52,795 nt of DNA from a virus. The stretch spans positions 1 to 52,795 of the IMG/VR virus record IMGVR_UViG_3300043786_001648; one strand, written 5' to 3'. The notes below the pieces were generated by a model, which saw nothing but the letters and a program-made list of their open reading frames with translations, was not told the DNA's origin and did not search any database. The position numbers and the translations under genes are program-made. Shown piece by piece: positions 20,526-50,968 of this stretch; position 1 is the stretch's first letter, and each line of letters opens with the position of its first letter.

Positions 20526-20540
20526 GGTCGCTCCATCCTC

Positions 20541-20580
20541 TCAAAAGAAGAAGCCGCCCCATAGGAGCGGCCTCCTCCAA
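20541..20580 (-). terminator. Rho-independent terminator on the minus strand
   Basis: Reading the minus strand, GCCGCTCC-TAT-GGGGCGGC forms an 8-bp stem extended by AG-rich/CT-rich flanks (with G-U pairs) and ends TTCTTCTTTT. It lies after the 158-aa gene and before the 1139-aa gene. Confidence 0.8.
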
Positions 20581-20599
20581 GGGGAGAAAAATGCTCGAA

Positions 20600-21076: not shown

Positions 21077-21084
21077 GGAGCACC

Positions 21085-21594: not shown

Positions 21595-21953
21595 TGGCCC
21601 ACCTCGATGAACTGGTAGTTCTGGTCGATCCCGGCCAATCGCTCGGCCACCTTCCTGTCCGTCATGGTCGCGAGGCCCACGAGGCTCACGCCCTCCTCCT
21701 CCATCCATCTCGACCACACCCACACCCTGTCCTTGCGGCGGAGCGCGGCCGTCTTCCTCATGTCCCACAGGAACCTGCGCACGTCGGCCTTCGCCTTGAG
21801 CGCCTGTCCCTGCACGACCAGCGGCTCCCTGCTCACGTTCACCAGGACACCCCCACTGGTCTCCGTCTCCGTGACCTTCACCAGGGAGAAGCCCCGGTTG
21901 TTGTGGCTCTCGGCCACCCTGTGGCTCAGCGACTTCACCTTCTCAAGCAGCAT
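21591..21953 (-). CDS. Hypothetical protein, 120 aa
   Basis: A compact alpha/beta protein (SREPLVVQGQ, RFLWDMRK, VSLVGLATMT, NYQFIEVG). The last strand-turn reads like a GNAT-type acetyltransferase end, and short-tailed phages often carry a small acetyltransferase-like gene just here, but the acetyl-CoA loop is not visible, so I leave it unnamed. It is coupled by 1- to 4-base overlaps to both neighbours. Confidence 0.65.
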   Translation of the reverse strand: MLLEKVKSLSHRVAESHNNRGFSLVKVTETETSGGVLVNVSREPLVVQGQALKAKADVRRFLWDMRKTAALRRKDRVWVWSRWMEEEGVSLVGLATMTDRKVAERLAGIDQNYQFIEVGQ

Positions 21954-24547: not shown

Positions 24548-24549
24548 GG

Positions 24550-26241
24550 TCAGCCCCCGCTCCTGCTACGAACTTCCTGAAGAAGGCCCTCGAGCGCGTC
24601 CACGTTGAACTGCTCGGCTCCCGCCATCGCCGCGCCCGTGTACGCATCGGTCGCCGCCCTCTCGCGCTCGAGGAGATCCTGCGTGCCCATCGCGGTCTCG
24701 CCCGCCTGACGCTCGAGCTCGAGCACGGTCTTGGCGATCTCCTTCGGATCGAGATCGAAGCCGAGGTCCTTGAGCCGCGGGTCGTTCTCGATCAGGAGCT
24801 GCACGATCTCCTCCATCTGCGCCGGGTCCCGAAGACCGAGGCGCCTGGCCTCGTCCTGGAACTCCTGCATCTGCGGGGCCGCCTGGTCCATCGCATACGC
24901 CTGCATCGCCATCCTGTGGACACGCGGCATGTCGAACTTCACCATGTCCACGAGCTCTCCGCCCGCGAGGTCCCGCATGAACTTCTCGTCGTTGGTCACG
25001 CTCTCGATGCCGTCGACGATGGCCCCCACGCCCCGCAGCGTCTTCTCGAGGATCGCGGCCTTGTCTCCCTGGATGCCCGACGCCGCAAGACCCTGGTCCG
25101 ACACCATCGCCGACGACCCCTCGGACAGCGCCTCCAGCGAACCCAGCATCGCCAGGATCTGGGTGTCCTGCATGCCCGACGACCTCAGCTTGCCGATGCC
25201 CTCGGCCACCTTCTTCCGGGCCTCCTCGGCCACCCTCTTGTCCTCGCCCGTCGCAGGCCTCCGGATCAGCTCGTCCTCGACGCCCGACAGAACCGCGCCG
25301 TTCACGATCAGCCCGACCATCACTTCCTTGGCCGCGGCCTTCTGCTCCGGCTTCAGGCCCAGGCCCTCGTCGTAGCCCTCGAACGCCTTGTCGATCACCT
25401 GCGTCGCGAACTTGGTCGGGCTCCGCTCGGTCACGGTCATGCGCTCGCGCGTCCACTCCTCGTCGCTCAGCCCGAACGTCGCGTCCAGCAGGTTCTGCCC
25501 GAGCACCTTCCACATGCCGAGGCCCTGCGTACCCACGCCCATCACGTCTCCGAACGGGGCGGCGCGCGCGGCCTCGCCCATGAAGCCCCCGGATTCACGG
25601 GCGTTCTGGAGGATCACGTCCGACACCGCGCTCGACATCGCCTTCCGGGCCGACTCGTCGAGCGTGGTCTGCGCCTGGTGGTACGCCTGCAGCCGGGCCT
25701 CGACTTCGCGGCCGCGCTCGGTGCGCACGGTGCCCGCCAACCCCTTGGCCTCGCGTCCCGCGTTCAGCGCCTGCTCGAGGCTCCTGGCCCTCTCCTGCAT
25801 CTTCCTCTTCTCGGCGCGGAGCGCCTTCAGGGTCGGATCGTCCTTCTGCCCGGCGATCGCCTGCGCCGACAGCTGCTGCGCCTTCGCCTTGGCCCTCGCG
25901 ATCTCGAGCCCGATCTCCTGGTCGAACATGCGCAGCTCCTTGTCCTGGGCCTGCGAGGCCTGGAACTGGGACTGCTGCTGCGCCAGCTCCTGGCCCTGCA
26001 TGCGCTCGCGGCTCTCGTTCAGCTTCTGATAGTTCTCGGCCTGCGCCTGAAGGTCTCGGCGCTGCATGCCCTCCTGCATGTTCTGGCCGCGCAACTGCAC
26101 GTCCTGCGCCCTGCGCTCAAGCCCGGCGGCCCGCTGCTGGGCCTCGCGCTGGAACGTGGCCTGCTGGTTCTGCGAGGCCTGCCCAAGGAGCTGGCCCCCC
26201 GCGAGAAGACTCTCGAGCTGCTGGTTCGGTACTGAGGACAT
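24550..26241 (-). CDS. Gln-rich coiled-coil virion protein, 563 aa
   Basis: Residues 1-170 are a Gln/Arg/Ala-rich coiled coil (LAQQQSQFQASQAQ). The rest is helical and acidic, with a central Gly/Met-rich stretch (GEAARAAPFGDVMGVG). No enzymatic motif is seen. It belongs with its neighbours to the internal/ejection set at the end of the structural operon. Its start overlaps the stop of the 402-aa gene. Confidence 0.65.
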   Translation of the reverse strand: MSSVPNQQLESLLAGGQLLGQASQNQQATFQREAQQRAAGLERRAQDVQLRGQNMQEGMQRRDLQAQAENYQKLNESRERMQGQELAQQQSQFQASQAQDKELRMFDQEIGLEIARAKAKAQQLSAQAIAGQKDDPTLKALRAEKRKMQERARSLEQALNAGREAKGLAGTVRTERGREVEARLQAYHQAQTTLDESARKAMSSAVSDVILQNARESGGFMGEAARAAPFGDVMGVGTQGLGMWKVLGQNLLDATFGLSDEEWTRERMTVTERSPTKFATQVIDKAFEGYDEGLGLKPEQKAAAKEVMVGLIVNGAVLSGVEDELIRRPATGEDKRVAEEARKKVAEGIGKLRSSGMQDTQILAMLGSLEALSEGSSAMVSDQGLAASGIQGDKAAILEKTLRGVGAIVDGIESVTNDEKFMRDLAGGELVDMVKFDMPRVHRMAMQAYAMDQAAPQMQEFQDEARRLGLRDPAQMEEIVQLLIENDPRLKDLGFDLDPKEIAKTVLELERQAGETAMGTQDLLERERAATDAYTGAAMAGAEQFNVDALEGLLQEVRSRSGG

Positions 26242-27449
26242 CAGAGGTTCCTAAAGTCAGGAGGTGCGATCTGTCCGAGGCCCGGAGTCGTCACGCCCGC
26301 GAGCCATCCGCTCAGCGCGGCGTACATGCTGGTCGTTCCGCGGCGGTTGCCCTGGATCATGTCGTACATCTCCTTGTAGCCGCCCACGAGCAGGTTCACG
26401 GCCCCGAGTTCCGAAGCCGCGCTCATCTGCTCCATGGTGACCCGCAGGTTCGACGACAGCTCGGTCATCGCGGCCCGCTGCCGCTGCGCGTCCACCGTCT
26501 GCGCCCCGAACGCGGTGCCCACCTGGCCCCTCAGCTGGCCGCCAGCCATCGTGGTCTGCGACTGGGCCTGCCGCAGCGCCGCAAGGTTCTGGCCCATCGA
26601 GGCCATCGTGTCGTTGAACTGCGTGTAGATCTGGTTGATACCCGTCGACGTCTGCTCCGCGACGTCCCTCTGCATCGTCGTCCTGATCGCGGCCTGCTCG
26701 GCCGGCGTCATCATCGTCCCGTCCGGGTTCACGCCTCCGTTCAGCTGGGCCATCGCGCTCTGCACCTGCCTGCTCAGCCCGACCGCCAGGTCCTTGGCCT
26801 GCAGCGCGGTCCGGTCCTGGTACTCCCCCATCGTCCGCTCGTATCCGGCCACGGCCCCGGCCGCCTGCTCGTTAGCGCGCGCGATGTCCTGGCCCACGGC
26901 ACCGATCTGCTGGTCCCTGAACCTCACGAACTCATCGAAGCCCTGCCGCCCGAGCTGCTCGGCACCCTGCGCCTGGCCCTCCAGCGTCTGCCGCGCCCTC
27001 TCGTCCTGGCCCCTGATCGCCTCGGCGCCCTGCCCCACGGCCTGCCCGAACTGCCCAGCCACCTGGTTCAGCCGTCCGAACTGCTGGTCCATGATGTCCT
27101 GCTGACGCTGCATGTCCCCGAACACGGCGCCCGAGAACAGCGAGTTCCACGCGCCTTGGCTCCCCTGCCGCCGCCCAAACCCCGAGCCCCCTTGCCCTCC
27201 CGAGGGATTGAATGGTCTCCACCGGCCGCCCGAAGCCTGGGCGACCGAAGGCCGGGGGCCCGTGAAGGACGGCCCGCCCGTCGGATTGAACGGCGTCCAG
27301 GTCCGCTGTGGCAAGTCCTGCCTCGACCCTCTGTTAGCGGCCTGCCCCGCCTTCCGGAACGTCGGGCCAAGGGAACCCCCACTGGATCCGCCGAACGGCG
27401 AGAACTGGCTCAAGGGGTCCGGTGCAGGGAAAGTCTGGAACTGGCTCAT
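26241..27449 (-). CDS. Internal virion protein, 402 aa
   Basis: The N-terminal 110 residues are Gly/Pro/Ser/Phe-rich and disordered, with a repeated unit (WTPFNPTGG and WRPFNPSGG). Residues 110-350 are Gln/Ala-rich helix, and the C terminus is hydrophobic (AALSGWLAGVTTPGLG). It follows the large tail protein, with which it shares a one-base stop-start overlap. It is probably part of the ejectosome. No family is recognised. Confidence 0.65.
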   Translation of the reverse strand: MSQFQTFPAPDPLSQFSPFGGSSGGSLGPTFRKAGQAANRGSRQDLPQRTWTPFNPTGGPSFTGPRPSVAQASGGRWRPFNPSGGQGGSGFGRRQGSQGAWNSLFSGAVFGDMQRQQDIMDQQFGRLNQVAGQFGQAVGQGAEAIRGQDERARQTLEGQAQGAEQLGRQGFDEFVRFRDQQIGAVGQDIARANEQAAGAVAGYERTMGEYQDRTALQAKDLAVGLSRQVQSAMAQLNGGVNPDGTMMTPAEQAAIRTTMQRDVAEQTSTGINQIYTQFNDTMASMGQNLAALRQAQSQTTMAGGQLRGQVGTAFGAQTVDAQRQRAAMTELSSNLRVTMEQMSAASELGAVNLLVGGYKEMYDMIQGNRRGTTSMYAALSGWLAGVTTPGLGQIAPPDFRNL

Positions 27450-30400
27450 CAGCTACCTCTTGGGTTCGTCGTTCGCTCGACCCCGGTGATCGTGCCTTTC
27501 ACGATGCATCCCAGCAACCTGAACTCGAGGTCCGGGCACAGGATACGGACTCCGGGCGTCAGCGACGTCCCCTTCACTCCGTATCGCCCCTCTGAATCAT
27601 CAGATCCAAAGGCCGCATACACCACCCCCTCGTGGTCCTGGACGCTCTCATACTGGGCCCCTTCCGTGTCCAAGGTGTCCCCCACTGCATAGGGGGTCTC
27701 CTGAGTGCCGCGCCACACGAGCCCCCTGAACCGGGCCAGCGGCGCATTTGCGGTGACCGCGTCGTTCAGTGGGGGTCCCGCGACGTCGCTGAACGCGCAG
27801 CCCACCGAGCTCACGATCTTCATGCGGAAGAAGTCCGCGTTCGAGAACTGCATCCCCTGCTGGTCCACGAGCCCGACCGGGTGCCCGCCCCACTCGAACA
27901 CCACCGGGCTCACCACGAACACGTCGCCCTGCCGCACGTCCGCGACCCACGCGGTCGGACCGCCGACCAACGGAGGCGAACACACCACCTGCGTCGCCGA
28001 GTTGTAGAGGACCCGGAACTTCTTGCCGATGTGCTGCTTGTTGTGCTGGCTGTCCACGAGGTAGACCCACGCGCCCTTCCACGCATCGGTCCCCACGACC
28101 GTCCCCGTGCCTGCGCTGATCGGCACCAGCAGGTTCACGGAGTCCCAGTTGGCCGACGCGACGAACCGCGAATCGCCCGCGAAGTCGAGCGTCGTGATCC
28201 TCCTCGCCCCGTTCCACGACGTCGTCGCCCCCGCGATCGTGCGGCTCCTCGCCTCGTCGACCACGTACAGCGCCGGGCTGAACGAGGCCCCGGACCCCAC
28301 GCCCGCCATCCTCGTGTCCGGGTTGTTCATCAGGAAGAAGGCCCGCCTCGTCAGCGGGTTGGCCGCGCTTCCCGAGCCCGTCCAGTTCAGCGGCCACGGT
28401 CCCTGGGTCGCCAGGTCGAACGACGCATCCGCGACCTTCGTCGTCTTGCCCGTGCCGAACCACAGCACGTAGGACTCCTGCTGCACCGGGTTGTGCACGA
28501 ACAGCGCATTCATAAAGGGATCGTGCGCGATCTGCACGGACGCAAGGTCCGCGGCCCACTCCCGCACCACCACGAGATTCAGGTTCCTGATCTCGTCGAG
28601 CTGGCCCTGCCCGTCCACGCTCGAGAGCCCATGGGTCGTCACGAAGTACGCGGCGCTTCCCACCGAGTCCACGGCCCTGTGGTTCACCACGCCGTAGCCC
28701 TCGTGCATCTCGGTGACCCTCAGGTACGGGCCGCTCCTCCGCACCAGGTACGCCCTGTCGCTTGACAGACCCACCAGGTTGGAACCGGCCTTCGAGAACG
28801 CCACGACCTCGTTGCTCGGGATCGTCGGGTTGTACCGGTTGAACGGCGGAAAGAGCTCGGGGCTCATCTCGACCAGCGACGACCACCGCATCTCGCCGAG
28901 GCCCCTCACGACGTCGGCGGTGGACGCCTGGTCGCCGGTGCTCGGCGGCGGCACACGCACCTTCGACACCACCAGCGTGTTCTGGCAGAACGCCGCGGCC
29001 CCCGCGAACGGCATCTTCTCGTCGAAGACGCTCCGGTCCACGTAGGCCTGCTGGTACACGAGCTGCTTGTCCTCGAGCTCGTAGAAATACATCGCGTGCC
29101 TGTTCGTCGTGACCGCCGGGTCGAACGTGCGCGACGATCCGTTCCTGCAGGTCCAGTAGTCCTCCAGGGTCACGACCGCGTCCAGCAGGGGAATGCCGGC
29201 CATCATCGTGCCGCCCGCGTCCTGCACCTTCACGCTCCTGTACACGTACATCAGGTCGTACTTCGCCGAGTCGTACACGATCTCGACCCCGATGTACTGG
29301 TCCTGCTTGACGCTGATGTTGTTGCCGTTCTCAGTGCGCACGACCGTGAAGTCCTCGCTCCGCACCTGAGCGACCTCGCTGAACGCGCTCCTGCGCCCGG
29401 TCCTCGAGTCCACCAGCACGTACCCGAAGCTGTAGTCGCCGGGCTCGAACTTGCGGGCCTGGAACCTGTTCTCCGTCGTGAACGAACCGCCCGAGCTCTC
29501 CTCGTAGAAGCCGGTGCAGTCCACGCGCCGCGCCGCCACCTTCCACAGGTACTTCTTGCCGTAGGCCAACCGACCCTGCGGAAACAGGCTCGCGGGCTCG
29601 AAGCTCGTCACCGACAGTCCCGCCGGCAAGGTGGCCAACTGATGGTTGTCGAGAACCCCCTTGCCCTCCTCCACCATGAACACCAGCCACGACACGTTTG
29701 CGTTGACCGCGGCGCCGCTCGGGTAGTACGTGGTCCAGTCGAGCTTCGGGGTCACGCTCACGCCCGTCTGCTTGTTCGCCGGGCTCAGGAGCTGCGTGGT
29801 CACGCCCGTCACGTCCGTGCACCCCGAACCAGTGGGGGTGTGCGTGTACGGCGAACCCGGCTGCGTCACCGCGGGCGGGCTCGGGAACGTGTCGCTCGCG
29901 CAGAGCCCGCTCACCTGGTCCGGGAACAGCTGCTCCGCCGTGTACGGATTGTCCGACAGCAGCACGACCTGCGCGACCGCGGGCCTCGTCCCGTCCACCG
30001 ACGTGAACGACCCGGGCGCGATGCCCCGCTCGGGGCTCTTCAGGGAGGGCTGCAGGCCCGGCCCCGGCAGCGCACCCCCACTGGTCAGGCCGATCACGCG
30101 GGGGGTCAAGAAGGTCTTGTTGGCGTAGGTGACCACCAGCTTTGGGCGGATGAACTCGCTGGCCTGAGTGCGGGCGGCCACGCTCACAAGGCCCGTGCCT
30201 GCCGTGGTGCCGCGCAGCGCGAGGTCCACCTTGGCCGAGGTCTGGTAGGTGCTCAGGAGGCAGTTGCCGACGATCGTCTTGAGCGCGGCGTCCTCGAACC
30301 TCACGCGCCCCACGAAGCCCCCGTTGACCGTGACCGTCGAGGTGGTCGCCGTGTCCCAGGTGCCGCCCGCCGTGCTCCAGTTGACCGCGGTCTTCCGAAG

Positions 30401-31168
30401 GAGCCAGGTGGCCGTGGCCTCCTCCCACAGCTGGCCGCTCGCCCCCGGATCCGTGACCGCGTTCAGCGTCAGGGGCACGGCGGGGGTCGACGTGTTTCCT
30501 GACACCGTGATCTCGACGCGGGCGCTCTCGATCGCCTGGCCGGCCTCGGCCGACGTGTCGAAGCGCAGCAGCGTGTTCCGGACAGACGTGCCGGTGGCGA
30601 CCTCGAGCGTCGCGGCCGACCCGTAGTTCGTGGTGGTCGCGGCCGCGCTCAGGAACGTGTCGGCCTCGGCCTCGTACTCCTTGGTCCGGGTGGCCTCCAC
30701 GTAGAAGATCGCGGGGCTCCTGCCCTCCACGAACACGTAGACGAAGCGGCCCATCACCTCGACGTCGAACTGGGCCGTGAGGCTCACGCCCTGCATCACC
30801 AGCCGGCACTTCTCCCACACCTGCGTCGCCGAGTTCCACCAGTCGATGAACACGTCGCCAGTCGCCGCCAGGAAGTTGCTCTTGGCGCGGTACACGAAGC
30901 CGTAGCCGTAGGCCTCGGCGCCGATCCTGAAGTCCACGGCCTTCACGTCCACCACGGTCGACGCGCTCGAGTAGCCGGCCTGGAGCTTCAGCTGGTCCAT
31001 CTCGTGGACCTTGCGGTAGCCCGGGAACGGACGGAGGCCTCCCTCGCTGCGGCCGTCGACGCCCGTCATCTCGGACGACAGGCCGCGCTGGACGCCGGGG
31101 CGCTCGATGCGCTTGTCGAGCGTCGTCTCCATCACGGGGTACGACCAGTCGGTCTTCATGTCAGGCAT
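27449..31168 (-). CDS. Giant tail protein with DNRLRE and Ig-like domains (tail nozzle-like), 1239 aa
   Basis: Residues about 50-165 and 650-1230 look like the beta-propeller/nozzle of short-tailed phages (YGFVYRAKSNFLAATGDVFI; AFSKAGSNLVGLSSDRAYLV; YFVTTHGLSSVDGQG). Residues about 170-360 match the DNRLRE pattern: DTFLS, NYGS, TLEV, NTLLRFDTS, then a VVTYAN end. Residues about 475-600 read like an Ig/FN3 module (LSPANKQTGVSVTPKLDW and YGKKYLWKVAAR). It probably forms the tail tube tip, with inserted accessory domains for host or surface binding. Confidence 0.75.
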   Translation of the reverse strand: MPDMKTDWSYPVMETTLDKRIERPGVQRGLSSEMTGVDGRSEGGLRPFPGYRKVHEMDQLKLQAGYSSASTVVDVKAVDFRIGAEAYGYGFVYRAKSNFLAATGDVFIDWWNSATQVWEKCRLVMQGVSLTAQFDVEVMGRFVYVFVEGRSPAIFYVEATRTKEYEAEADTFLSAAATTTNYGSAATLEVATGTSVRNTLLRFDTSAEAGQAIESARVEITVSGNTSTPAVPLTLNAVTDPGASGQLWEEATATWLLRKTAVNWSTAGGTWDTATTSTVTVNGGFVGRVRFEDAALKTIVGNCLLSTYQTSAKVDLALRGTTAGTGLVSVAARTQASEFIRPKLVVTYANKTFLTPRVIGLTSGGALPGPGLQPSLKSPERGIAPGSFTSVDGTRPAVAQVVLLSDNPYTAEQLFPDQVSGLCASDTFPSPPAVTQPGSPYTHTPTGSGCTDVTGVTTQLLSPANKQTGVSVTPKLDWTTYYPSGAAVNANVSWLVFMVEEGKGVLDNHQLATLPAGLSVTSFEPASLFPQGRLAYGKKYLWKVAARRVDCTGFYEESSGGSFTTENRFQARKFEPGDYSFGYVLVDSRTGRRSAFSEVAQVRSEDFTVVRTENGNNISVKQDQYIGVEIVYDSAKYDLMYVYRSVKVQDAGGTMMAGIPLLDAVVTLEDYWTCRNGSSRTFDPAVTTNRHAMYFYELEDKQLVYQQAYVDRSVFDEKMPFAGAAAFCQNTLVVSKVRVPPPSTGDQASTADVVRGLGEMRWSSLVEMSPELFPPFNRYNPTIPSNEVVAFSKAGSNLVGLSSDRAYLVRRSGPYLRVTEMHEGYGVVNHRAVDSVGSAAYFVTTHGLSSVDGQGQLDEIRNLNLVVVREWAADLASVQIAHDPFMNALFVHNPVQQESYVLWFGTGKTTKVADASFDLATQGPWPLNWTGSGSAANPLTRRAFFLMNNPDTRMAGVGSGASFSPALYVVDEARSRTIAGATTSWNGARRITTLDFAGDSRFVASANWDSVNLLVPISAGTGTVVGTDAWKGAWVYLVDSQHNKQHIGKKFRVLYNSATQVVCSPPLVGGPTAWVADVRQGDVFVVSPVVFEWGGHPVGLVDQQGMQFSNADFFRMKIVSSVGCAFSDVAGPPLNDAVTANAPLARFRGLVWRGTQETPYAVGDTLDTEGAQYESVQDHEGVVYAAFGSDDSEGRYGVKGTSLTPGVRILCPDLEFRLLGCIVKGTITGVERTTNPRGS

Positions 31169-31607
31169 CGATCGCGCTCCTCAGTTCGTCCGAGAGGGGA
31201 CGCCGCGGCGCCTCCTCGTTCCTCCACAGCCCGAACGGGCAGCTCGCCGCGGGCATCCGTCCCTTCACCGTCAGCTCCGCCCTCGACTTCTCGCCGCACC
31301 CGCACTTGGTGCACCACCCCAGCTTCCCGGGCTCCTCGGCCCGCTTCAGGTGGTCGCATGCGTTGCAAGTCTCGAGCCTCCTGACCAGCTCGTCCACCCC
31401 CACTGGTCCCTTCACCAGGAGGCTGGCCTCGGCCTTCGCATACGACAGCGCCTTCTGCGCGAACGTCAGCGGCACGCTCCGCCCGGCGTGCCCCGGGTTC
31501 CGCGGCTTGATCTGCTCGCAGGGTCCCCCGCACGGCTTGCCGCCCACGCGCGGGTGCGTGCACCTGGTCCCTCTCAGCCAGAAGCAGTCTACAGGCTCCA
31601 TGTCCAT
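31161..31607 (-). CDS. Cys-rich zinc-binding-like protein, 148 aa
   Basis: Start taken as ATG 31607 (MDMEPVDCFW); ATG 31601 or a further upstream start would also fit. Cys are grouped as C-x5-C, CGGPC, CNAC and CTKCGCG with further Cys, a metal-ribbon pattern. It overlaps the giant tail gene by 8 bases and the Cys-rich 465-aa gene by about 19. Similar short zinc-ribbon proteins accompany tail genes in other phages, but I know no defined function. Confidence 0.65.
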   Translation of the reverse strand: MDMEPVDCFWLRGTRCTHPRVGGKPCGGPCEQIKPRNPGHAGRSVPLTFAQKALSYAKAEASLLVKGPVGVDELVRRLETCNACDHLKRAEEPGKLGWCTKCGCGEKSRAELTVKGRMPAASCPFGLWRNEEAPRRPLSDELRSAIDA

Positions 31608-32986
31608 TGAATGGTCCTTTCGTCCGACTCGCACCACGCCGGCCAGTAGCAGACCGTCCCCGGAAACTCCACCAGTTTCCCGTTCGCATCATTGCAGGGA
31701 ATGAAGCAGCTGTTTCCCGCAGTGGCGCAGAAGTAGAACGAGCCCTTCCCGGTCGGCGGGCAATACTCGCCCTCGGGGAACGTGCCGGTCAGCGCCGTGC
31801 ACGGCTGGCATCCGCCCTTGCCGGCCATGTCGTCGCTGCCAGTGCATAACACGTTGTTGAAAACCGGTGCCGGGTGGCTGTCGCAACCGAGGGTCGGGGC
31901 GTCGAAGGTGCTCCCGTTCAGGCAGTTGCCCTTGCCGAGCACGGCGAAGGGCTCGATGCACGGCGTCCACGCCTCGGACGAATAGCAGCTGGAGTCGTCG
32001 CCCTCGCAGTCGACGCAGCACGGGTCCCTGTTGTCGGGCCAGTCCGTAGGGTCGCCCGACCACCTCTCGTAGGTGCCCGACCCGGTGGCGCCCGCGAAGC
32101 TGGGACGGAACACGAGCACGGGCTTGGCGCACCCCTCCTTGCAGTACCCCTCGACGCACGCGATCGCCAGGACCTGGTTGGACCGGGCCAGCGTGGTCAG
32201 CTTGTAAGGAACCCCGGTGTCGTCGAGAGGCCCGCGATCGCACGGACTTTCGTCGCACGTGTCTCCGCAGGTCGATTCTGCACAGAACCCCGGCGCCAAG
32301 ATCGTGCCCGTCCAGTTCCATTCCTTGGTCTCGATCAGCTTGAAGACGATGTCGTCGACGGTCTGCGGACAACCGCAGTCGGTGCAGCCCACGGGGATGT
32401 TGTCGCCGGTGACCTCTCCGTCGGCGCAGTTGGCGCCCATCGCGCTGCCGCAGTTCCAGCTGAGGCACGGGTTCGTGCTGGTAAGGGCGAGGAATCCGCC
32501 GAAGAGCGGGTCGTCGCACATGAAGTCGGTGCCGCACGCGCACGGGTCCGTGTTCGAGAGGCCACCCTGGATGTTGGTGAGGCAGCCGCTGTCGGTGTAG
32601 TCGGCCGTGCAGCACTGCGGCGGGCAGAAGTTCTGGCAGACGTGGTACGAGCCGACGTCGTAGGTGCGCTCGATGCGCTGGTACGAGAAGTCGACCTGCT
32701 GCGCCGAGAAGCGGAACAGGTTCGGCCAGTTGAGGCTGGGGGAGCCGGCGGCCGCGAAGTCGCACGTGGTCCCGGACTTCGTCATGGTGGCCGTGATCGT
32801 CCAGTAGACCTCCTTGACGATCAGGGTGGTCGGTGAAGCCGAAGGCAGGATCTTGCGCTCCACGATCGCGGAGCCCGAGAGCGTCACCGTGATCGGTCCC
32901 GCGGGGCTGCAGGCCCACCAGTCGCAGCAGTCGGTCTCGCACTCCTCGGTGCAGCAGCAGGCGGCGGCGATGGCGCCGTTACTCAC
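31589..32986 (-). CDS. Extremely cysteine-rich virion protein, 465 aa
   Basis: I count 45 Cys in 465 residues, grouped as CCC, CC and C-x2-C pairs from the N terminus (ACCCTEECETDCC) to the end, with Trp, Asp, Gly and Pro between them. It has no signal peptide. The pattern resembles disulfide- or metal-stabilised modular repeat proteins. It is placed between the adaptor and the nozzle protein and next to two more Cys-containing proteins, so it is probably an exposed tail/fibre component. No family is recognised. Confidence 0.7.
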   Translation of the reverse strand: MSNGAIAAACCCTEECETDCCDWWACSPAGPITVTLSGSAIVERKILPSASPTTLIVKEVYWTITATMTKSGTTCDFAAAGSPSLNWPNLFRFSAQQVDFSYQRIERTYDVGSYHVCQNFCPPQCCTADYTDSGCLTNIQGGLSNTDPCACGTDFMCDDPLFGGFLALTSTNPCLSWNCGSAMGANCADGEVTGDNIPVGCTDCGCPQTVDDIVFKLIETKEWNWTGTILAPGFCAESTCGDTCDESPCDRGPLDDTGVPYKLTTLARSNQVLAIACVEGYCKEGCAKPVLVFRPSFAGATGSGTYERWSGDPTDWPDNRDPCCVDCEGDDSSCYSSEAWTPCIEPFAVLGKGNCLNGSTFDAPTLGCDSHPAPVFNNVLCTGSDDMAGKGGCQPCTALTGTFPEGEYCPPTGKGSFYFCATAGNSCFIPCNDANGKLVEFPGTVCYWPAWCESDERTIQWTWSL

Positions 32987-33764
32987 AGGTCACCTCCAGC
33001 GGGTTCGGGGTCTCGAACCACGGGACGCAGTTCTCGTCGAGCACGAGGTCGACCACGGCGCCGTTCGGGATGCGCAGCCTCGAGAGGATCGTGCCCACGG
33101 GGACCACGTTGCCGCCGTCGTTCGGCATCGACGTCTCGTACTCGTTGGCGGCGTCGCCGTAGGCCGAGCTCGAGCGGCCCGAGCCCGCCAGCTCGCCCCA
33201 CGAGTAGGTCCAGTAGGTCTTGCCCGAGACCGTGAACGGCCCAGAGGCCCCTGTGATCTGGGCCTTCAGGACGGTCTGGGATGGACCGCAGCCGCAGTCG
33301 CAGCCCTTGGAGCCCCCGCCGCCTCCGCCACCCCCACTGGTCGGCGAGCCGCAGCCGTCGGCCAGGCATTCGTCGATGCCGAGGTAGATGCCGTTGGGGT
33401 CCTGGATGCACTTGCCCGAGAGGCACGAGTACCGGATCCGCTCCTCGGGACCGATCGGGGGCACCGAGTCCGGATGCGCCGTGGGAGCAGTGGGGGTGCC
33501 CAGGCTGCCGATCAGGTTGAAGATGGTGGGCGAGAAGTCGCCCGTGAAGGCGCCGCTTCCGCCGGGGCCCTCGATCAGCGGGGACGGGCCGGACTGGCCG
33601 GGCATGTCGCCGGGGCCCGAGGTCGGGTAGGCGTCGTTGAAACGGAGGCCGGGCACCACCGTGAACCGCTGGAACCCGAGGTCGAGCCGCCGGACGATCC
33701 CCCGTGAGAAGCCGGGGTTCGACTCGAGGTCCTGCATAGCCTGGTTGAAGGCCTCGTTCTGCAT
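32979..33764 (-). CDS. Tail-associated protein with Cys-rich EGF-like segment, 261 aa
   Basis: The N-terminal 100 residues are Pro/Gly-rich. Residues about 110-140 have spaced Cys (YSCLSGKCIQDPNG, then DECLADGCG), resembling an EGF-like knot. A run of eight Gly then CDCGCG forms a linker, and the C-terminal 90 residues are a beta domain. It overlaps the 465-aa Cys-rich gene by 8 bases. It is probably an accessory tail or neck protein. One CCCCCACTG copy lies in the Gly linker (33331-33339). Confidence 0.65.
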   Translation of the reverse strand: MQNEAFNQAMQDLESNPGFSRGIVRRLDLGFQRFTVVPGLRFNDAYPTSGPGDMPGQSGPSPLIEGPGGSGAFTGDFSPTIFNLIGSLGTPTAPTAHPDSVPPIGPEERIRYSCLSGKCIQDPNGIYLGIDECLADGCGSPTSGGGGGGGGSKGCDCGCGPSQTVLKAQITGASGPFTVSGKTYWTYSWGELAGSGRSSSAYGDAANEYETSMPNDGGNVVPVGTILSRLRIPNGAVVDLVLDENCVPWFETPNPLEVTCE

Positions 33765-33767
33765 GGC

Positions 33768-34652
33768 TCAAAAGGTGAAGAGGTTCTTGTTGTCGGCGGT
33801 GCCGCCGGTGAATCGCTTGCCCGTGCGTGAGTTCATGTTGCCCAGCATGTCGTGGGCCGTCTTGATCGCGGACTTGTAGGAGAGCATGAGGAGCTGCATC
33901 TGGGCGCCCGTGATCTTGCGGCCCGTGCCCGCGCGCATGGCCGCGCTCAGCGAGACGGCGTCGATCATGGGCTCCAGGAGAAAGGGAACTACCTCGTACG
34001 AGTACGATCCGGCGGTGTTCGTGGCCGCAGTGCGAAGCGTGAGGATCCGCGTGGCCGCATCGTGCGCCGAGACGACCAGCTCATCGGTGACCCCCGATCC
34101 GAAGATCCGCAGATAGCACCCCACGTAGGCGTTCTGCCGCTTGTCCCTCGAGCCGAGCGTCGGGTTGAGCACCATCGTGAACGTGCCGTTCGCGTTCAAG
34201 GTGCCCTGCGCCGGGGTCTCGTGGTGGGCCTGGACGTCGCCGCTCGGGATGTAGGCGATCGAGAACTCGCGCCCCGACGTCGGCGGCGGCTCGAACGAGA
34301 TCAGGTTCCCCTGGAGCGCCCAGCCCGGGCCGTACACGTTGAACTGGTTCCTCGGATGGAAGTCCTCCGTCCAGGCCCCCGTGTCCGCGTTCTTCAGCCC
34401 GACCCTCAGGACCTGCCTCACAGTGGGGGGCAGCAGGTAGTCCTTCACGCCCTCCGACACCGTGAGCGTCAGGTTCTGGATGATCTGGACGTCGCTCATC
34501 ATCGAGACGCGCGACAGGACGTCGTTCATCGCGCTCGAGAGGAAGAAGCGCACCAGGTAGTTGTCGTCGTACTTGGCGTCGAGGTCGGGGTCGTCCAGGT
34601 AGTGGCGGACCTTCTCGCAGTACGTTCGGAGGATGGAGCCGGATGAGTGCAT
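33768..34652 (-). CDS. Head-tail adaptor/connector protein, 294 aa
   Basis: The N-terminal helices (ILRTYCEKVRHYLDDPD, VRFFLSSAMNDVLSRV), a central beta insertion and a C-terminal helical bundle (DAVSLSAAMRAGTG, LLMLSYKSAIKTAHDML) give the layout of T7 gp11-type adaptors, which link the portal to the nozzle. It lies downstream of the capsid gene and upstream of the nozzle-like protein, the expected place. No motif is diagnostic, so the call rests on architecture and position. Confidence 0.7.
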   Translation of the reverse strand: MHSSGSILRTYCEKVRHYLDDPDLDAKYDDNYLVRFFLSSAMNDVLSRVSMMSDVQIIQNLTLTVSEGVKDYLLPPTVRQVLRVGLKNADTGAWTEDFHPRNQFNVYGPGWALQGNLISFEPPPTSGREFSIAYIPSGDVQAHHETPAQGTLNANGTFTMVLNPTLGSRDKRQNAYVGCYLRIFGSGVTDELVVSAHDAATRILTLRTAATNTAGSYSYEVVPFLLEPMIDAVSLSAAMRAGTGRKITGAQMQLLMLSYKSAIKTAHDMLGNMNSRTGKRFTGGTADNKNLFTF

Positions 34653-34655
34653 GGT

Positions 34656-35207
34656 TCAGCCCGTGGAGATGATCTTGCCCTGCATGGCCCAGTTCAGGAG
34701 TTCTCGCATCTCGTCGACCTGCTGGTCCTCGTCCGGCACGTCCTCAAGACTCAGATTGTCGGCGGCCTCGTCCAGCCCCCGGGCCTTCAGGATCCGGGCC
34801 ATGTCGTCCATGGCCGTCTTGCGGTCGAGGAGCCTGAGCTGGCGCTCGCTGATCTTGTCGAGCCGCGCCTTGCGCTCCTCCTCCACGACCACGTGGCCGG
34901 GCCGGCACCTGGACACGATCCACTCCATGTCCGGGAGGTCCGCGGGGTCCTCCTCGGGCTTCCCCGAGAAGACGCAGATCTCGACGCACACGGCCACGCC
35001 CTGGCCCCACGTGCGCGGCTTGACCGACCAGCAGGCCAGCCCGAACATCTTGGACCTCCGGTGGTGGTAGACGAACAGGTCCTTCTGGCCGGTGCGCTCC
35101 CGGACCGCCTTGATCCACGGGCCGTCCGGCACGAGCTCGAACCTCTCGGGATCCATCTCGGTACCAAGCAGGATGGCCGCCGTGATCTCGTCGTCGCTCA
35201 TCGCCAT
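34656..35207 (-). CDS. Hypothetical protein, 183 aa
   Basis: The N-terminal part is alpha/beta with aromatic and basic residues (FVYHHRRSKMFGLACWSVKP). The C-terminal 70 residues are a charged helix (ISERQLRLLDRKTAMDDMARIL) ending in an acidic tail. Located between capsid and adaptor genes and separated from the capsid gene by a terminator, it may be a head-completion or capsid-associated factor. No family is recognised. Confidence 0.65.
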   Translation of the reverse strand: MAMSDDEITAAILLGTEMDPERFELVPDGPWIKAVRERTGQKDLFVYHHRRSKMFGLACWSVKPRTWGQGVAVCVEICVFSGKPEEDPADLPDMEWIVSRCRPGHVVVEEERKARLDKISERQLRLLDRKTAMDDMARILKARGLDEAADNLSLEDVPDEDQQVDEMRELLNWAMQGKIISTG

Positions 35208-35220
35208 TCCGTTCTCCTAT

Positions 35221-35253
35221 GCAAAGGGGCCGCCCCATTCACGAGGCGGCCCC
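35221..35253 (-). terminator. Rho-independent terminator after the capsid gene
   Basis: On the minus strand GGGGCCGCC pairs with GGCGGCCCC (9 bp) around TCGTGAATGG, followed by TTTGC. It would partly shield the downstream genes from the high level of capsid transcription. Confidence 0.75.
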
Positions 35254-35280
35254 AGTGTAACCGATGAACCCGTCAGGGGA

Positions 35281-36933
35281 TCACATGTAGAGGCGATCCT
35301 CGGTGAGGCCCGTGAGCTTCATGCCGTTCACCTGGTCGGGCACGAGCTGCATGCGGATGCGGCCGGGCATCTGCGAGGCCTGGGTCACGAGGTTGGCTCC
35401 GCCGCCGCTCGCGGTCTGGTAGACCGGGAGCTGGTTCGTGGAGGTGCCGGTGATGGCGCCCGCGACGAACTCGAACGGGATGAACGCATCGGCCTCGCTC
35501 ATCTTGGAGACGCCCTTCGGGCTCGGAGGCACGTACTTCTTCCAGTTCGATCCGCCGAGCTTGAGGCCGTAGAGGGTGCCCGCCTCGACGAAGCGCGAGG
35601 TGTGGCCCTTGTAGGTCTTGCCCTCGAACGTGAAGCTGAAGCCCTCGGCCTGGCCCTCGTTCGTGATCGACGAGGGGCGGTTCGTGCGATCGATGCGGTA
35701 CTGGCCGATCTTCTGCGACTCGTAGGCGCTCCACACGCCCTCCGACGCGATCAGGGTGTCGATCGTGTTGCCGAGCGGCTCGAACGCGCTGTGGACGCGC
35801 TGGAGGTAACGCTTCATGTTGTACTCGGTGAGGACGCCGTTGACCGCGTACTTGAAGCTCTTGAACTCCGGCCGCTCGAGCACGTCGATGTGCATGGCCG
35901 AGTCGGACTCCGCGCCGAGGAGCGAGGTCGGACGGGCGCCGCCCGTCTCCGCGCCGCTCTTCAGCCAGCTGTTGATGCCCGCGATGCCCGTGAAGGTCGT
36001 GGTGCCCGTGCCGTTCTCGAGGTGGCTGTTCGCGTACACGATGTAGGCCCCGTTGAGGTCGGCCGCCGTCGCCACCGTGCCGCCCGAACCCGTCGCAAGG
36101 CTCGACCGGAACGAGGTCGTGTTCGTATTCGACACGAGGACGACCGTGTTCGTGAGCGGGTCCACGTTCTCGACGACCAGCTGCACGCGGGTGCCGCGGG
36201 TCGCCTGGGAGAGCGTGAGGGTGCCTGTCACGACCTGAGCGGCCGTGTCGTTGGAGCGGATGCCGTTCGTGTGAAGGATGTCCACGCGCTGGCCGCGCGC
36301 GAAGCGGTGGCAGGCCTGGTTGTCCGGGTTGAACGAGATGCGGTAGTAGGTGCTCGTGCCGGACGGAGGGGTCGGGGTGCTGAGGACCGCGTTCGAGATC
36401 GCGCACAGGCGGTAGTTCTCGTTCTGCGAGAGGTACCAGTAGTTGCAGAGCGTGAGCGCCATGTTGCGGGCGAACGCGGTCAGCTTCGGCGCCACGACCT
36501 GGTTGATGAGCGCGGGCGTCGCGTCGGCCTGCTTCTCACCGAGGGTGATCATCAGGTTAGTGACGAGCGAGCGCATCGGGATGCCGAGCTGGTACGGCGT
36601 AGCGTTCGGACCCTCGAGCGGGCTCGGGTACGCCTGGTTCGCCTGCTGGGTGTGCATCAGCGAGCCGATCGAGTCGGTCAGGTCGCCGTACAGGTCCTTG
36701 TTGCCGAAGCCCTGGCCGGCCTCGATGACACCCGTGAGGCTGCCCATGTACGTCTTGATGATCTTGAGGTCGCGGCCGAGGTCGCCGGAGTTGCCGACGC
36801 CCTGGCTGGTGACGGCCTTGTCGCGCCACACCGGATCGAGTCCGGCGAGGAAGACGCGAAGGCTCTTGTTGAGGACTTCCTGGATTCGGTTGGACTGACG
36901 ATCGAAGATCGAGCCCGTTGTTGCGAATGGCAT
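35281..36933 (-). CDS. Major capsid protein, 550 aa
   Basis: Follows the scaffold gene directly. It opens MPFATTGSIF and has the HK97-type progression: an N-terminal helical arm, a long helix (TNLMITLGEKQADATPALIN), and a beta-rich domain with an inserted segment (about residues 200-330, Thr/Asn/Val-rich). The length is longer than minimal capsid proteins (about 330 aa), which fits the insertion. No cleavage site is evident. A terminator after it supports high expression. Confidence 0.85.
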   Translation of the reverse strand: MPFATTGSIFDRQSNRIQEVLNKSLRVFLAGLDPVWRDKAVTSQGVGNSGDLGRDLKIIKTYMGSLTGVIEAGQGFGNKDLYGDLTDSIGSLMHTQQANQAYPSPLEGPNATPYQLGIPMRSLVTNLMITLGEKQADATPALINQVVAPKLTAFARNMALTLCNYWYLSQNENYRLCAISNAVLSTPTPPSGTSTYYRISFNPDNQACHRFARGQRVDILHTNGIRSNDTAAQVVTGTLTLSQATRGTRVQLVVENVDPLTNTVVLVSNTNTTSFRSSLATGSGGTVATAADLNGAYIVYANSHLENGTGTTTFTGIAGINSWLKSGAETGGARPTSLLGAESDSAMHIDVLERPEFKSFKYAVNGVLTEYNMKRYLQRVHSAFEPLGNTIDTLIASEGVWSAYESQKIGQYRIDRTNRPSSITNEGQAEGFSFTFEGKTYKGHTSRFVEAGTLYGLKLGGSNWKKYVPPSPKGVSKMSEADAFIPFEFVAGAITGTSTNQLPVYQTASGGGANLVTQASQMPGRIRMQLVPDQVNGMKLTGLTEDRLYM

Positions 36934-36961
36934 GTTTGGTTCCTACGCCCCACGGGCGCGT

Positions 36962-37879
36962 TCAGACGACGGATTGACTGGGGGATTCCACGAGGCCCCG
37001 CTGAATCGAATCCGCGGCGAACTCCTTGACCTGGTTCTCCAGGCTCGAGAAGTCCATCCCGGGCTTCCATTCCGGCGCGGGGACCGGCTTCGTTCGCAGG
37101 ATCTCCTGTGCATCCAGTCCGTCTGCTGTTTCCGACGTCCGACCGAGACGGTCGAGATCGCCGATTACCGAACGGAACGTGCCGACGACAGGCTCTACTG
37201 CCTTCTCGACTTCCTCGGCCATCCAAGCGTCCTCGAAGGTGCCTGCCGCCGCACGGCGGGTCTGCATCCGGTCCAGGGCCTTCTGCTCGAGCTGAGCCCG
37301 AAGAGCCTGTTCCGCCTGCCTGGCACCCTCTTCTCCGCGAAGTGTCCGAGAAGCCTCGAGGAGTTTCTGAAACTCCGGGTTGGTTTTCAAGACGCGGTCC
37401 AGCTGTCCGTCGAGGGACTGCCGGAGTTCGCGCACCCTCATCTTGTGAAGCTCGGCGCGGTGCGCCTCCAGCTGTGCCTTGATCTCTTCTGCGCTGTTGC
37501 TCATTGGGTCCTCTGTTTCACCCCCACTGGTTTCGTCCTCGTCGTCCTCCGGGAAGTCCGGAAGCTCGATCTCCTCCACCTCGTCCTCGTCCTCGTCCTC
37601 GGCCGCGGACGCGGCTGGCTCCGTCGTGCGGCGCGTGGCCTGCACGTACTGCTCGATCTGCTCGTCCTCGTAGCCGAGGTTCTGCAGCACGTTGCGGACG
37701 GCCTCTTCCTTGCGGCCCGGGGGAGCCTCGGCCTGGAACAGGACGCCGACCTCCTGGAGGTCCTTCTGCAGCGTGTCGTTGATCTCGATCGCGTCCTTGA
37801 GGTCCTTGTGGCTCTGGATGAGCTCGGCCAGCGAGATCTCGCTGCCGTCCTCGAGGGTGACCTTCGTTTCGGGGTCCAT
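36962..37879 (-). CDS. Scaffolding protein, 305 aa
   Basis: Highly charged and helical, with a strongly acidic stretch (EDEDEDEVEEIEL near 95-107) and long coiled coils (about 125-225), ending in a short C-terminal helix that would bind the capsid. The position between portal and capsid genes is the standard scaffold position. A CCCCCACTG copy (37521-37529) lies in the codons for TSGGE. The start lies immediately after the portal stop. Confidence 0.85.
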   Translation of the reverse strand: MDPETKVTLEDGSEISLAELIQSHKDLKDAIEINDTLQKDLQEVGVLFQAEAPPGRKEEAVRNVLQNLGYEDEQIEQYVQATRRTTEPAASAAEDEDEDEVEEIELPDFPEDDEDETSGGETEDPMSNSAEEIKAQLEAHRAELHKMRVRELRQSLDGQLDRVLKTNPEFQKLLEASRTLRGEEGARQAEQALRAQLEQKALDRMQTRRAAAGTFEDAWMAEEVEKAVEPVVGTFRSVIGDLDRLGRTSETADGLDAQEILRTKPVPAPEWKPGMDFSSLENQVKEFAADSIQRGLVESPSQSVV

Positions 37880-39892
37880 TTACGGTCCTCTTTGCGGCAT
37901 CGGCGGAGCCTGGGGGCCCGCCGCCTGGCCACCCTGCAGCTGGGCCATCTGCTGGTCCAGCTTCGACAGCATAGCCACATCGTCAGGATTGGGAAGGGCG
38001 TTCGGCATCACAAGGCCCATGAAGCCCATCAGCGTCTTGTGGTACTCGATGAAGGCGTTCTGCACCTCGGCCGCGGCGACCGCCATCACGGGGCTCGCCA
38101 TGAACGAGTTGAGGACCCGGATCTGCATCTCGGGCTTCGTCATCTGCGGCGTCAGCACGACCTGGCCGGGGGTCTTGCCGTCGCCGTACAGGAGCAGGCA
38201 GTTCCGCACCACGGACTCGTAGGCCGACTGGTGCTCGTCGGTCCACATCGCGAAGTCGAGGCCTTCCTTCAGCGCGAACAGCATGAAGGTGTCGGGGTCG
38301 ATCTGGAACTGCTGCTGGAGCGCCAGGGCCTCCTGCTTGCGGGCCACCTTCGACCGCGGGTTGATGTCCTTGATCTTGAAGGAGAGCTGCGAGAGCGACG
38401 GCAGCGGGTTCGACTCGAAGCTCACCGCCATCGTCTCGGGGTCCACCACGACTCCCGCGAGGTCGAGGGTCAGCTGGTCCACCGTGAACGTGCGCGGGCT
38501 GAACACGACCTCGCGCACGGCGCTAGCGAGCACCGACCGGTAGGCGTCGCCCCACGCCGCCTGCACCCCGGCGGTCGGCGTGTTCATCGCGCGGTTCACC
38601 TGCTCGTCGAGGAACTGGAGGCCGGTCGCCGAGTCCACGCGGCCCTTCTCGGCCAGCAGGTCCCGGATCGGGTTGAGGCGGTCGATCTGCGAGACCGCGA
38701 ACGAGCTCACCTTCCCGGGCACGTCGCCGCTCGTGAACGGCGTGATGTTGAACGGCCTGAAGCCCTCGCTGATCGGGTCGGGCTCCCACGGGAAGACGCG
38801 CAGGCCCTGGCCCACGTCGCGCAGCATCGTGTTCGCGTTGAACGACCCGTGCGGCAGCACCAGCACCCCGTACTTGTCGATGTCCCGGATGTTCTGGAAC
38901 AGCGACTTCTGCAGGCGCTCGGCCTCGCGGCACAGCGAGAACAGCAGGTCGAAGACGCCGGCCCCGTGGAACGAGCCGTTCTCCATGAACCGCGCGAAGC
39001 CGATCGGGCAGTAGACCTCGCGTCCCTCGAACGACTCGTCGTGGAGCGTGCACTCGCCGCTCGTCACGATGTACCTCTCGACCGTGTCGCGCGGCCCCTT
39101 CAGCCACAGCTCGCGCACCCTCACGACCTGCTGCGACTCCTTGTCCGAGTCGTGCATGGCCATGCGGTCGTCCGAGTACGTGACCTGGGACCCCAGCGTG
39201 TACTCGTTGGCGGTCTGCTGCTCGTAGGACTCCCCGGGCCGGATCGTGTAGTACTCGATGCGGTCCTTGTTGCGGGTCACCTTCGAGCCGAACTTCTCCT
39301 TCAGGTACTCCATTGACACCATGCGCTGCCTGAGAAGCCCGCGCTGCTTCGTGTAGTCGTGCACGAGGCTCGGGAACGGAAACAGCTCCATCGGGTGCAC
39401 GACCTCGAGGTCCGTCGTGAGCCCGACCGTCGGATGGTTCACGATGTGGCCGGTGACGCCGCAGCTGCCGAGCAGCGTGAAGATGTGGTTGAACTGGGGG
39501 ACCACCCGCTGCAGCTGGTGCTCCGACACGACCTGGTCCAGCATGATCTGGGCCACCGACCTCTGGCGGATCGAGCTCAGCGAGGAGCCGACGCGCTGCA
39601 CCAGCGGCCTGAAGTCGAGGCTGCTCAGCCTGCCCGAGATCTGGTCGACGGCCTTCAGCAGCTCGCTCGACTGGAACTCGAGCCGGTCCTGCTCGTCGAG
39701 GTACGAGTAGCGGACGGTGCCGCTCTCGGGATCGAACACGTCAAACTGCCGGGCCCCCTGCAGGTAGTACAGGGCCACCAGCCAGGTCGCCCTCCGGTAC
39801 GACAGGCGGTTCGTCTCCCGCTCCACGTGGGCGTCCACGATCCGGGCCAGCGCCATCGGGTCCTTCGTGAGCTTGATCGGGTCGGTTGCCAT
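37880..39892 (-). CDS. Portal protein, 670 aa
   Basis: Opens MATDPIKLTK after an AGAAAGG ribosome site. It has the T7/short-tail portal look: helices and wing at the N-terminal 200 residues (RRATWLVALYYLQGARQF), a central clip/stem (about 300-430) and a long C-terminal helical barrel (LSQLSFKIKDINPRSKVARK), ending in a Gln/Pro/Gly-rich tail. The length and the position between terminase and scaffold are typical. The previous gene runs 152 bases into its 5' end. Confidence 0.85.
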   Translation of the reverse strand: MATDPIKLTKDPMALARIVDAHVERETNRLSYRRATWLVALYYLQGARQFDVFDPESGTVRYSYLDEQDRLEFQSSELLKAVDQISGRLSSLDFRPLVQRVGSSLSSIRQRSVAQIMLDQVVSEHQLQRVVPQFNHIFTLLGSCGVTGHIVNHPTVGLTTDLEVVHPMELFPFPSLVHDYTKQRGLLRQRMVSMEYLKEKFGSKVTRNKDRIEYYTIRPGESYEQQTANEYTLGSQVTYSDDRMAMHDSDKESQQVVRVRELWLKGPRDTVERYIVTSGECTLHDESFEGREVYCPIGFARFMENGSFHGAGVFDLLFSLCREAERLQKSLFQNIRDIDKYGVLVLPHGSFNANTMLRDVGQGLRVFPWEPDPISEGFRPFNITPFTSGDVPGKVSSFAVSQIDRLNPIRDLLAEKGRVDSATGLQFLDEQVNRAMNTPTAGVQAAWGDAYRSVLASAVREVVFSPRTFTVDQLTLDLAGVVVDPETMAVSFESNPLPSLSQLSFKIKDINPRSKVARKQEALALQQQFQIDPDTFMLFALKEGLDFAMWTDEHQSAYESVVRNCLLLYGDGKTPGQVVLTPQMTKPEMQIRVLNSFMASPVMAVAAAEVQNAFIEYHKTLMGFMGLVMPNALPNPDDVAMLSKLDQQMAQLQGGQAAGPQAPPMPQRGP

Positions 39893-40157
39893 GTCGTGCC
39901 TTTCTTGCCGCGTACCCTCCCGGGACCAGCTTGATGCGCTCCTTCACGGGAGCATACTGCTTGACCACGTCCTCGGAAGGGAGAGACCCTTCGTATGCAC
40001 CCCCACTGATTCCCACGGAGGGGTGCCTGGGGCCGTTGCCGTAGTAGGACAGGCAGAGTATCCCTAGCCAAGTATCGGACAGCGTCACGGTCGCGCCCAA
40101 CGGATTGGCCTGCGCGGGTTCCTTGTCCGCGGAGCCGCCGAAGTACCAGCGCGACAT
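39741..40157 (-). CDS. Hypothetical protein overlapping portal start, 138 aa
   Basis: The open frame runs from ATG 40157 (MSRWYFGGSA) to a stop at 39741, 152 bases inside the portal gene in another frame. The first 85 residues have good phage codon use and look globular (LSDTWLGILCLSYYGNG); the last 50 are just the alternate frame of portal. Either the real C terminus is this overlapped tail, or a frameshift or sequencing error hides an earlier stop. A CCCCCACTG copy at 40000 encodes ISGGA. Confidence 0.5.
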   Translation of the reverse strand: MSRWYFGGSADKEPAQANPLGATVTLSDTWLGILCLSYYGNGPRHPSVGISGGAYEGSLPSEDVVKQYAPVKERIKLVPGGYAARKARHGNRPDQAHEGPDGAGPDRGRPRGAGDEPPVVPEGDLAGGPVLPAGGPAV

Positions 40158-40188
40158 CGCCTCGAAGAGGGCGAGCGGCACCCGGCAC

Positions 40189-42153: not shown

Positions 42154-42578
42154 CAGCCCCCACTGGTCACGAGGAGGTGCGCCGAGGCCAGCATGCAGAG
42201 CGCGGCCAGCATGTCGGCGGGGTTCTCGGTGGCGGGGCTCATGCTGTGCAGGCGGGCGGCGATCGCCGTCCACTTGTCGTTGAGGCGGCCGTCCGGGCCG
42301 ACGAGCTCCTCGCGGATGCGGCGCCCGAAGTCGGAGGCGCTCCCGACCGCGCGGTCGACGTCGATCACGCCGAGGTCCTCGTAGACGTAGGCGCCCCAGG
42401 ACGCGAAGTCGGTGTCCCGCAGCTCAGGCAGGCGGAGGTCCAGCTTCTCCACCGGCGACGGACGGGGGGAGGACGCGGGACGCGAGGGGGCCGGTGCCGA
42501 GGGACTGGAGGCGACGGACGCGCTCGAGGAGGCGCGATTCTGAACGGGTCTGCTCGACGAGGTTTCCTTGCTGGTCAT
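42153..42578 (-). CDS. Hypothetical protein overlapping the small terminase-like gene, 141 aa
   Basis: ATG 42578 has AGGA with 8-base spacing, so it is a credible start, but the first 50 residues are Ser/Pro-rich because they overlap the preceding gene in another frame by 155 bases. A GTG at 42452 could start a 99-residue form with normal composition (EKLDLRLPELRD). The C-terminal half is helical with ADMLAALCMLASAHLL, a hydrophobic helix. Its stop overlaps terL. Function is unknown. Confidence 0.55.
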   Translation of the reverse strand: MTSKETSSSRPVQNRASSSASVASSPSAPAPSRPASSPRPSPVEKLDLRLPELRDTDFASWGAYVYEDLGVIDVDRAVGSASDFGRRIREELVGPDGRLNDKWTAIAARLHSMSPATENPADMLAALCMLASAHLLVTSGG

Positions 42579-50940: not shown

Positions 50941-50968
50941 AGGTGTCTCCTTCAGGAAGGATAATCGG

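Follow-up and report, generated by a model that had tools for sequence, protein, structure and literature searches.

Three adjacent cysteine-rich genes of an uncultured viral record, p261, cys465 and p158, probably form an exchangeable host-recognition (receptor-binding) cassette of a short-tailed phage. The product of cys465 would be a beta-rich adhesin stabilised by disulphide bonds, attached through p261 and assembled by p158, and we infer that this Cys-rich protein is present in the virion. The analysis covers the complete record of 52,795 bases, called the window here, which comes from a tailed phage and carries late genes on the minus strand around the Cys cluster. The first-pass annotation had drawn attention to the cluster but missed that the trio is an exchangeable cassette whose body comes in several versions, a finding that speaks for host recognition and not solely for the stabilisation of a fixed tail part.

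Genomic setting of the cysteine-rich genes

The late genes are arranged in the order terminase, portal-like, scaffold-like, capsid-like, 183-aa gene, adaptor-like, p261, cys465, p158 and 1239-aa nozzle-like (Table 1), and large Cys-free proteins come after the nozzle-like gene. As read from the sequence, this is the gene order of short-tailed (podovirus-like) phages, with a strong match behind the terminase name only; the SU10_adaptor match of the adaptor-like protein is weak and lies under the Pfam cut-off, and PDB sequence-profile searches with the adaptor and the portal found nothing. In both the window and its relatives the three Cys-rich genes are flanked by the adaptor-like and the nozzle-like gene, in agreement with the tail-module location proposed earlier. 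Among the relatives the adaptor-like protein is 59–82% identical and the nozzle-like protein 51–76%.

Several other features of the locus were observed. Residues 156–322 of the nozzle-like protein form a DNRLRE-type (carbohydrate-binding-like) insert, which is kept in relatives (PDB 8wab, E 7.9e-6). The adaptor gene is fused to 600–700 extra C-terminal residues in two relatives, L007 (5582–8287) and L026 (15772–18750). The replication genes of the window encode a DNA polymerase A (8310–10349, plus strand), a PD-(D/E)XK nuclease (13152–14576, plus strand) and a DUF5906 protein (50777–52396, plus strand).

Table 1. Features of the window and insertions in the corresponding interval of related loci
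Feature	Position	Strand	Remarks
p261	32979–33764	minus	261 aa, 9 Cys
cys465	31589–32986	minus	465 aa, GTG start, 45 Cys
p158	31161–31637 from GTG (158 aa) or 31161–31607 from ATG (148 aa)	minus	10 Cys
Variable cassette	31170–33300	minus	DNA similarity lost, blastn of window against 12 relatives
Nozzle-like protein	27449–31168	minus	1239 aa; flanks cassette; 'nozzle' from gene order and size only
Adaptor-like protein	33768–34652	minus	flanks cassette on the other side; SU10_adaptor, E 3.9e-4
Head module	34656–42273	minus	upstream of cassette; includes p183
Capsid-like	35281–36933	minus	gene order and conserved synteny
Scaffold-like	36962–37879	minus	gene order and conserved synteny
Portal-like	37880–39892	minus	gene order and conserved synteny
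Terminase large subunit	40189–42273	minus	phrog_38, E 3.2e-31
Kelch/tail-fibre insertion	L084 13413–14840		adaptor-nozzle interval
Kelch/tail-fibre insertion	L032 9076–10020		adaptor-nozzle interval
Kelch/tail-fibre insertion	L075 13821–14699		adaptor-nozzle interval

Cysteine content of the trio and its neighbours

The three genes are adjacent on the minus strand, overlap by a few bases and show the high GC3 of real genes. Coordinates and composition confirm the first-pass description of three neighbouring Cys-rich genes: the 465-aa product is 9.7% Cys and holds five CC, three CxC and three CxxC motifs. Elsewhere in the late region there are 38 Cys among 9,572 residues (0.40%), and at this rate the 64 Cys of the trio would have a chance of about 10^-57. 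An artefact of frame or composition is ruled out by the high GC3 together with the recurrence of the genes across many independent contigs.

Five structural proteins of 1139, 864, 563, 402 and 305 aa (17106–27449 and 36962–37879, minus strand) have no Cys at all. The scaffold homologues (n = 27) have none in 8,332 residues altogether; all four homologues of the 563-aa protein and nine of the ten homologues of the 402-aa protein are also Cys-free. Selection against stray thiols is a possible reason for such Cys-free neighbours.

Relatives and the slot between p261 and the nozzle gene

The portal gene led to 37 IMG/VR loci at 81–95% identity and with conserved synteny; related loci are referred to by L numbers. 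The relatives of cys465 were reached through the portal gene and not through cys465 itself, which as a single query had no hits among viral contigs or isolate phages. No isolate phage matches the portal, terminase, nozzle or cys465 (for the portal, 50,697 isolate phage records were covered). The portal and Cys-rich profiles found no relative in 85,000 genomes (GTDB), hence no host or prophage.

In 22 of the 23 IMG/VR contigs that are long enough, the slot between p261 and the nozzle gene holds a Cys-rich ORF (6–10% Cys) that begins with M(S)NGxxxxxCCC or a similar start. The remaining contig, L074, keeps the start MNGALATFCCC and continues with a Gly-rich body up to the contig end. The 23 contigs represent about 18 distinct phages once near-identical contigs are merged, and the ORF of one (L087) runs off its contig. 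Five further contigs (L067, L077, L089, L024 and L088) end within or just after p261 and are uninformative on the slot. The CCC anchor together with the p261 motif described below is a marker for annotating this whole clade of uncultured phages.

Behind the N-terminal anchor MSNGxxxxxCCC the bodies fall into several types, and bodies of different types share the first ~15 residues only. Type A (465 aa in the window) comprises 14 proteins of 334–523 aa with 29–53 Cys, alignable over their length. Type B bodies are about 350 aa (L008, L010, L018/L031 and L030), type C about 725 aa (L070/L073 and L084) and type D 644 aa (L086). When the type A and type B profiles are compared, only the N-terminal CCC segment aligns (hhalign E 5.6e-5).

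The more distant type A proteins of L053–L058 are encoded within another tail module, where phrog_5 (E 2.6e-13) marks a neck/tail-completion gene and the tape-measure matches are weak. Judged by these matches the loci are siphovirus-like, and the Cys-rich gene with its partner occurs in two kinds of phage. The Cys-rich gene of L053–L058 adjoins a lysis-type lipoprotein gene that resembles by eye the window gene at 12353–12655.

Exchange of the cassette between near-identical phages

When the window is compared with 12 relatives by blastn, similarity is lost from mid-p261 to the end of p158 or the start of the nozzle gene. The edges of the cassette vary by relative and fall at about 33,500–32,890 and 31,380–31,150. 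The clearest exchange case is the pair 3300042389_000786 (L010, type B) and 3300032092_000122 (L009, type A). The DNA of these two phages is 96–97% identical across the nozzle gene and most of the portal side, and 92% identical from inside the capsid gene to mid-p261. From p261 codon ~157, just past the GCDCG sequence, until ~10 nt short of the nozzle start, it is unalignable. At the protein level the adaptor is 99% and the nozzle 97% identical, and the Cys-rich proteins only 29%. This en bloc loss of similarity identifies the exchange unit as the p261 C-terminal domain, the Cys-rich gene and p158, and by these alignments the trio is a conserved unit that is exchanged en bloc between near-identical phages. 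L010 and L009 also lose similarity inside the capsid gene (L010 13506–13944), which suggests that a capsid insertion domain was exchanged as well.

When mapped on an adaptor-protein tree the body types need seven changes, and their clustering is no greater than that of shuffled labels. Such scatter bears on the idea of a collar or decoration protein, rich in disulphides, that reinforces the tail and makes no contact with the host. The gene does sit at the adaptor-nozzle joint, and phage Milano locks its neck, sheath and baseplate by disulphides (PMC10811340, PMC10491603). However, a structural stabiliser should be conserved with the tail, yet the bodies are unrelated where flanking genes are 97–99% identical, and the body types are scattered across the phage tree. 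We regard such a purely mechanical role as quite unlikely.

Conservation and predicted structure of cys465

Within type A the pairwise identity is 72% at aligned Cys and 27% at other residues, so the lack of Cys conservation among homologues that the first-pass annotation had named as the decisive objection is not seen in this type. No residue is more conserved than Cys; proline (0.50) and tryptophan (0.45) come next, and 11 of the 18 invariant columns are Cys. The AF2 model of cys465 is mostly beta (pTM 0.68, mean pLDDT 64), with poorly predicted loops. Searches of Pfam, PHROGs, the PDB, INPHARED isolate phages and Foldseek gave no match for cys465, and none of them linked it to a known receptor-binding protein by sequence or fold. 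The porin matches of the model in Foldseek carry no meaning, with TM-scores near 0.1. PDB searches with the Cys-rich and p158 profiles gave only insignificant or unconvincing matches, one of them a type B match to 'Cyanovirin-N homolog' (E 0.013).

The first-pass annotation left the choice between disulphides and many bound metal ions. Two pairs of cysteines are lost together in type A: C16 and C286 are absent from exactly the same sequences (L040 and L058), and so are C26 and C355 (L014, L020 and L032). For such co-loss pairs with at least two losses each, shuffling gives P 0.005 and a comparison with matched non-Cys columns P 0.047, a signal of modest strength. A third pair, C20 and C277, is lost in L032 only and contributes little, since with single losses included the excess over matched columns is no longer significant (P 0.23). 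The choice falls on disulphides over metal because the cysteines are lost in pairs and His is scarce (0–10 per type A protein of 334–523 aa), so that on sequence grounds the first option is retained and the second is disfavoured.

A metalloprotein of the tail or the cytoplasm, in which the cysteines coordinate zinc or an iron-sulphur centre, has some points in its favour. There are CxxC and CxC groups in cys465, the neighbouring p158 looks like a zinc protein, with zinc-ribbon-like spacing and invariant CxxC pairs, and HxH iron sites are known in phage tail fibres (PMC11705849). Yet, besides the paucity of His, each protein has only 1–4 CxxC pairs for its 29–53 Cys, the losses occur in matched pairs and not in fours, and the long, beta-rich sequence with its W and Y residues is unlike metallothionein. 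Metal coordination is therefore an unlikely role for the cysteines of cys465, and we favour disulphides.

The partner proteins p261 and p158

The N-terminal half of p261 has a helical start and is conserved with the phage backbone, while the C-terminal beta domain (about residues 157–261) belongs to the exchanged cassette. Four Cys of the protein form the invariant motif C-x4-C-x13-C-x4-C, with GCDCG behind it; among 19 aligned relatives the invariant cysteines are C114, C119, C133, C138 and C260. The EGF-like knot that had been assigned to p261 is not supported, as the six-Cys EGF pattern is absent and this four-Cys motif is found instead. In the AF2 model (pTM 0.38) the C-terminal beta domain is confident; its best PDB matches in Foldseek are OB-fold-like and none is significant. 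The C-terminal domain was not found in the siphovirus-like loci (best E 0.13). Four weak matches of the Cys motif to Salmonella phage tail fibres (E 1–4) were taken as chance. We propose that p261 is a docking protein.

For p158, conservation favours the internal ATG at 31607 over the GTG at 31637. Its C-terminal domain, CxxC-x14-CxxCGC...CP...W, is constant across relatives, and the pairs C81xxC84 and C99xxC102 are invariant in all 14 aligned sequences with the spacing of a ribbon. By its sequence pattern the domain is zinc-ribbon-like. It matches phrog_13558 (E 5.7e-6) and cyanophage proteins (E down to 3e-6). The N-terminal part varies with the cassette. Type A phages have a Cys/HP knuckle, C-x7-C-x(H/D)P, types B and C have a form like LYG-x-(R/Q)PS-x-GIC, and type D has none. 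The N-terminal form matches the type of the Cys-rich body in 15 of 15 phages, an association that comprises four independent supported contrasts (sign test p 0.125). In L053–L058 a p158-like N-terminal knuckle also comes after the Cys-rich gene. Its place directly downstream and its type-matched N-terminus make p158 resemble the dedicated chaperones of tail fibres, and we propose that it may be the dedicated assembly factor of the Cys-rich protein. As a precedent, in Alteromonas phage V22 (gp26/gp27) the gene immediately downstream of the tail-fibre gene encodes a chaperone (PMC7289586).

Proposed role in host recognition

Receptor-binding modules typically pair a short invariable anchor with bodies that can be swapped, move between phages that are otherwise almost identical, and take a small downstream gene along. 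Three features expected of such a module are found here: the genes lie in the tail module, a conserved N-terminal part carries unrelated bodies, and there is horizontal exchange. In podovirus-like relatives the adaptor-nozzle interval also takes up recognisable tail-fibre, lectin-like and Kelch-repeat genes. The tail-fibre genes match phrog_1699 and phrog_10316 (E in the 1e-6 range), and the C-terminal domain of one of them is SO2946-like/GH16-like. We suggest that cys465 works like a receptor-binding protein, and we place it in no named family of these proteins.

Fast divergence and exchange would also suit an arms race in which the surface varies against host or environmental attack (a protease-resistant shield or a decoy). 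A lysis-linked exported factor is likewise conceivable, as in the siphovirus-like loci a lysis-type lipoprotein gene precedes the Cys-rich gene. In the podovirus-like clade, however, the Cys-rich gene is inside the tail module and far from the window lipoprotein gene, its slot is common to recognisable tail-fibre genes, and a signal peptide, as for an exported factor, is not seen in the sequence. Functions of this kind, other than receptor binding, are very improbable.

Phage proteins are made in the reducing cytoplasm, so an adhesin with ~45 Cys needs either dedicated help or a place outside the cell for its folding and oxidation. For the receptor-binding role we propose the following sequence of events. 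The Cys-rich protein would be made reduced in the cytoplasm, with p158, the small zinc-ribbon-like protein encoded directly downstream, as its dedicated assembly factor. The conserved half of p261 would join the tail, and its exchanged C-terminal domain would fit the incoming adhesin as a dock. The CCC anchor may hold the adhesin to p261 or may link the adhesin's own chains. On release into the oxidising medium many disulphides would form, and the hardened, rigid beta-rich adhesin would then bind the host surface. A more far-reaching version is tentative: the cassettes could represent a new class of host recognition, with several unrelated Cys-saturated bodies, a CCC anchor covalently locked to p261 and a type-specific p158, used by podovirus-like and siphovirus-like phages alike.

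If confirmed, the cluster would define an undescribed family of host-recognition proteins and provide a natural collection of swappable binding scaffolds, rich in disulphides and all carried by one short anchor. It would also be a testable case of phage control of thiol chemistry, several neighbouring structural proteins being Cys-free.

Comparison with known systems

Metallothioneins are rich in Cys, short and devoid of aromatic residues, and EGF-like domains combine high Cys content with a six-Cys pattern. The cluster resembles both in high Cys content only, the EGF pattern being absent here. Full-text searches of the open-access literature turned up no account of a tail protein family comparably saturated with Cys. 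The first-pass statement that no tailed-phage family has this composition holds for the family itself; for the tail it has to be narrowed, since the tail of Agrobacterium phage Milano has an extensive disulphide network, with receptor-binding proteins disulphide-linked to the baseplate (PMC10811340). The cassette would share with Milano (PMC10811340, PMC10491603) the extensive disulphides in the tail. However, Milano is contractile, most of its bonds link subunits of standard proteins, and its structural proteins average 2.1% Cys (PMC10811340), whereas here a dedicated family with 9.7% Cys is surrounded by several Cys-free structural proteins.

p158 shares its C-terminal CxxC-x14-CxxCGC...CP domain with the small zinc-ribbon-like proteins of phrog_13558 and cyanophages. 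Unlike phrog_13558, it has an extra N-terminal knuckle that tracks the body type.

The closest parallel in organisation is with modular receptor-binding proteins and their chaperones (T4 gp37/gp38, Mu Tfa and V22 gp26/gp27). In common with these, the cluster has a conserved N-terminal attachment, an exchangeable C-terminal body, a small co-inherited downstream gene and a location in the tail module. The family would thus work like a receptor-binding module while matching none by sequence or fold, and it differs from these modules in its body of 6–10% Cys and its CCC anchor. It differs also in its breakpoint, which lies inside the preceding gene p261, so that the C-terminal domain of the dock is exchanged together with the adhesin.
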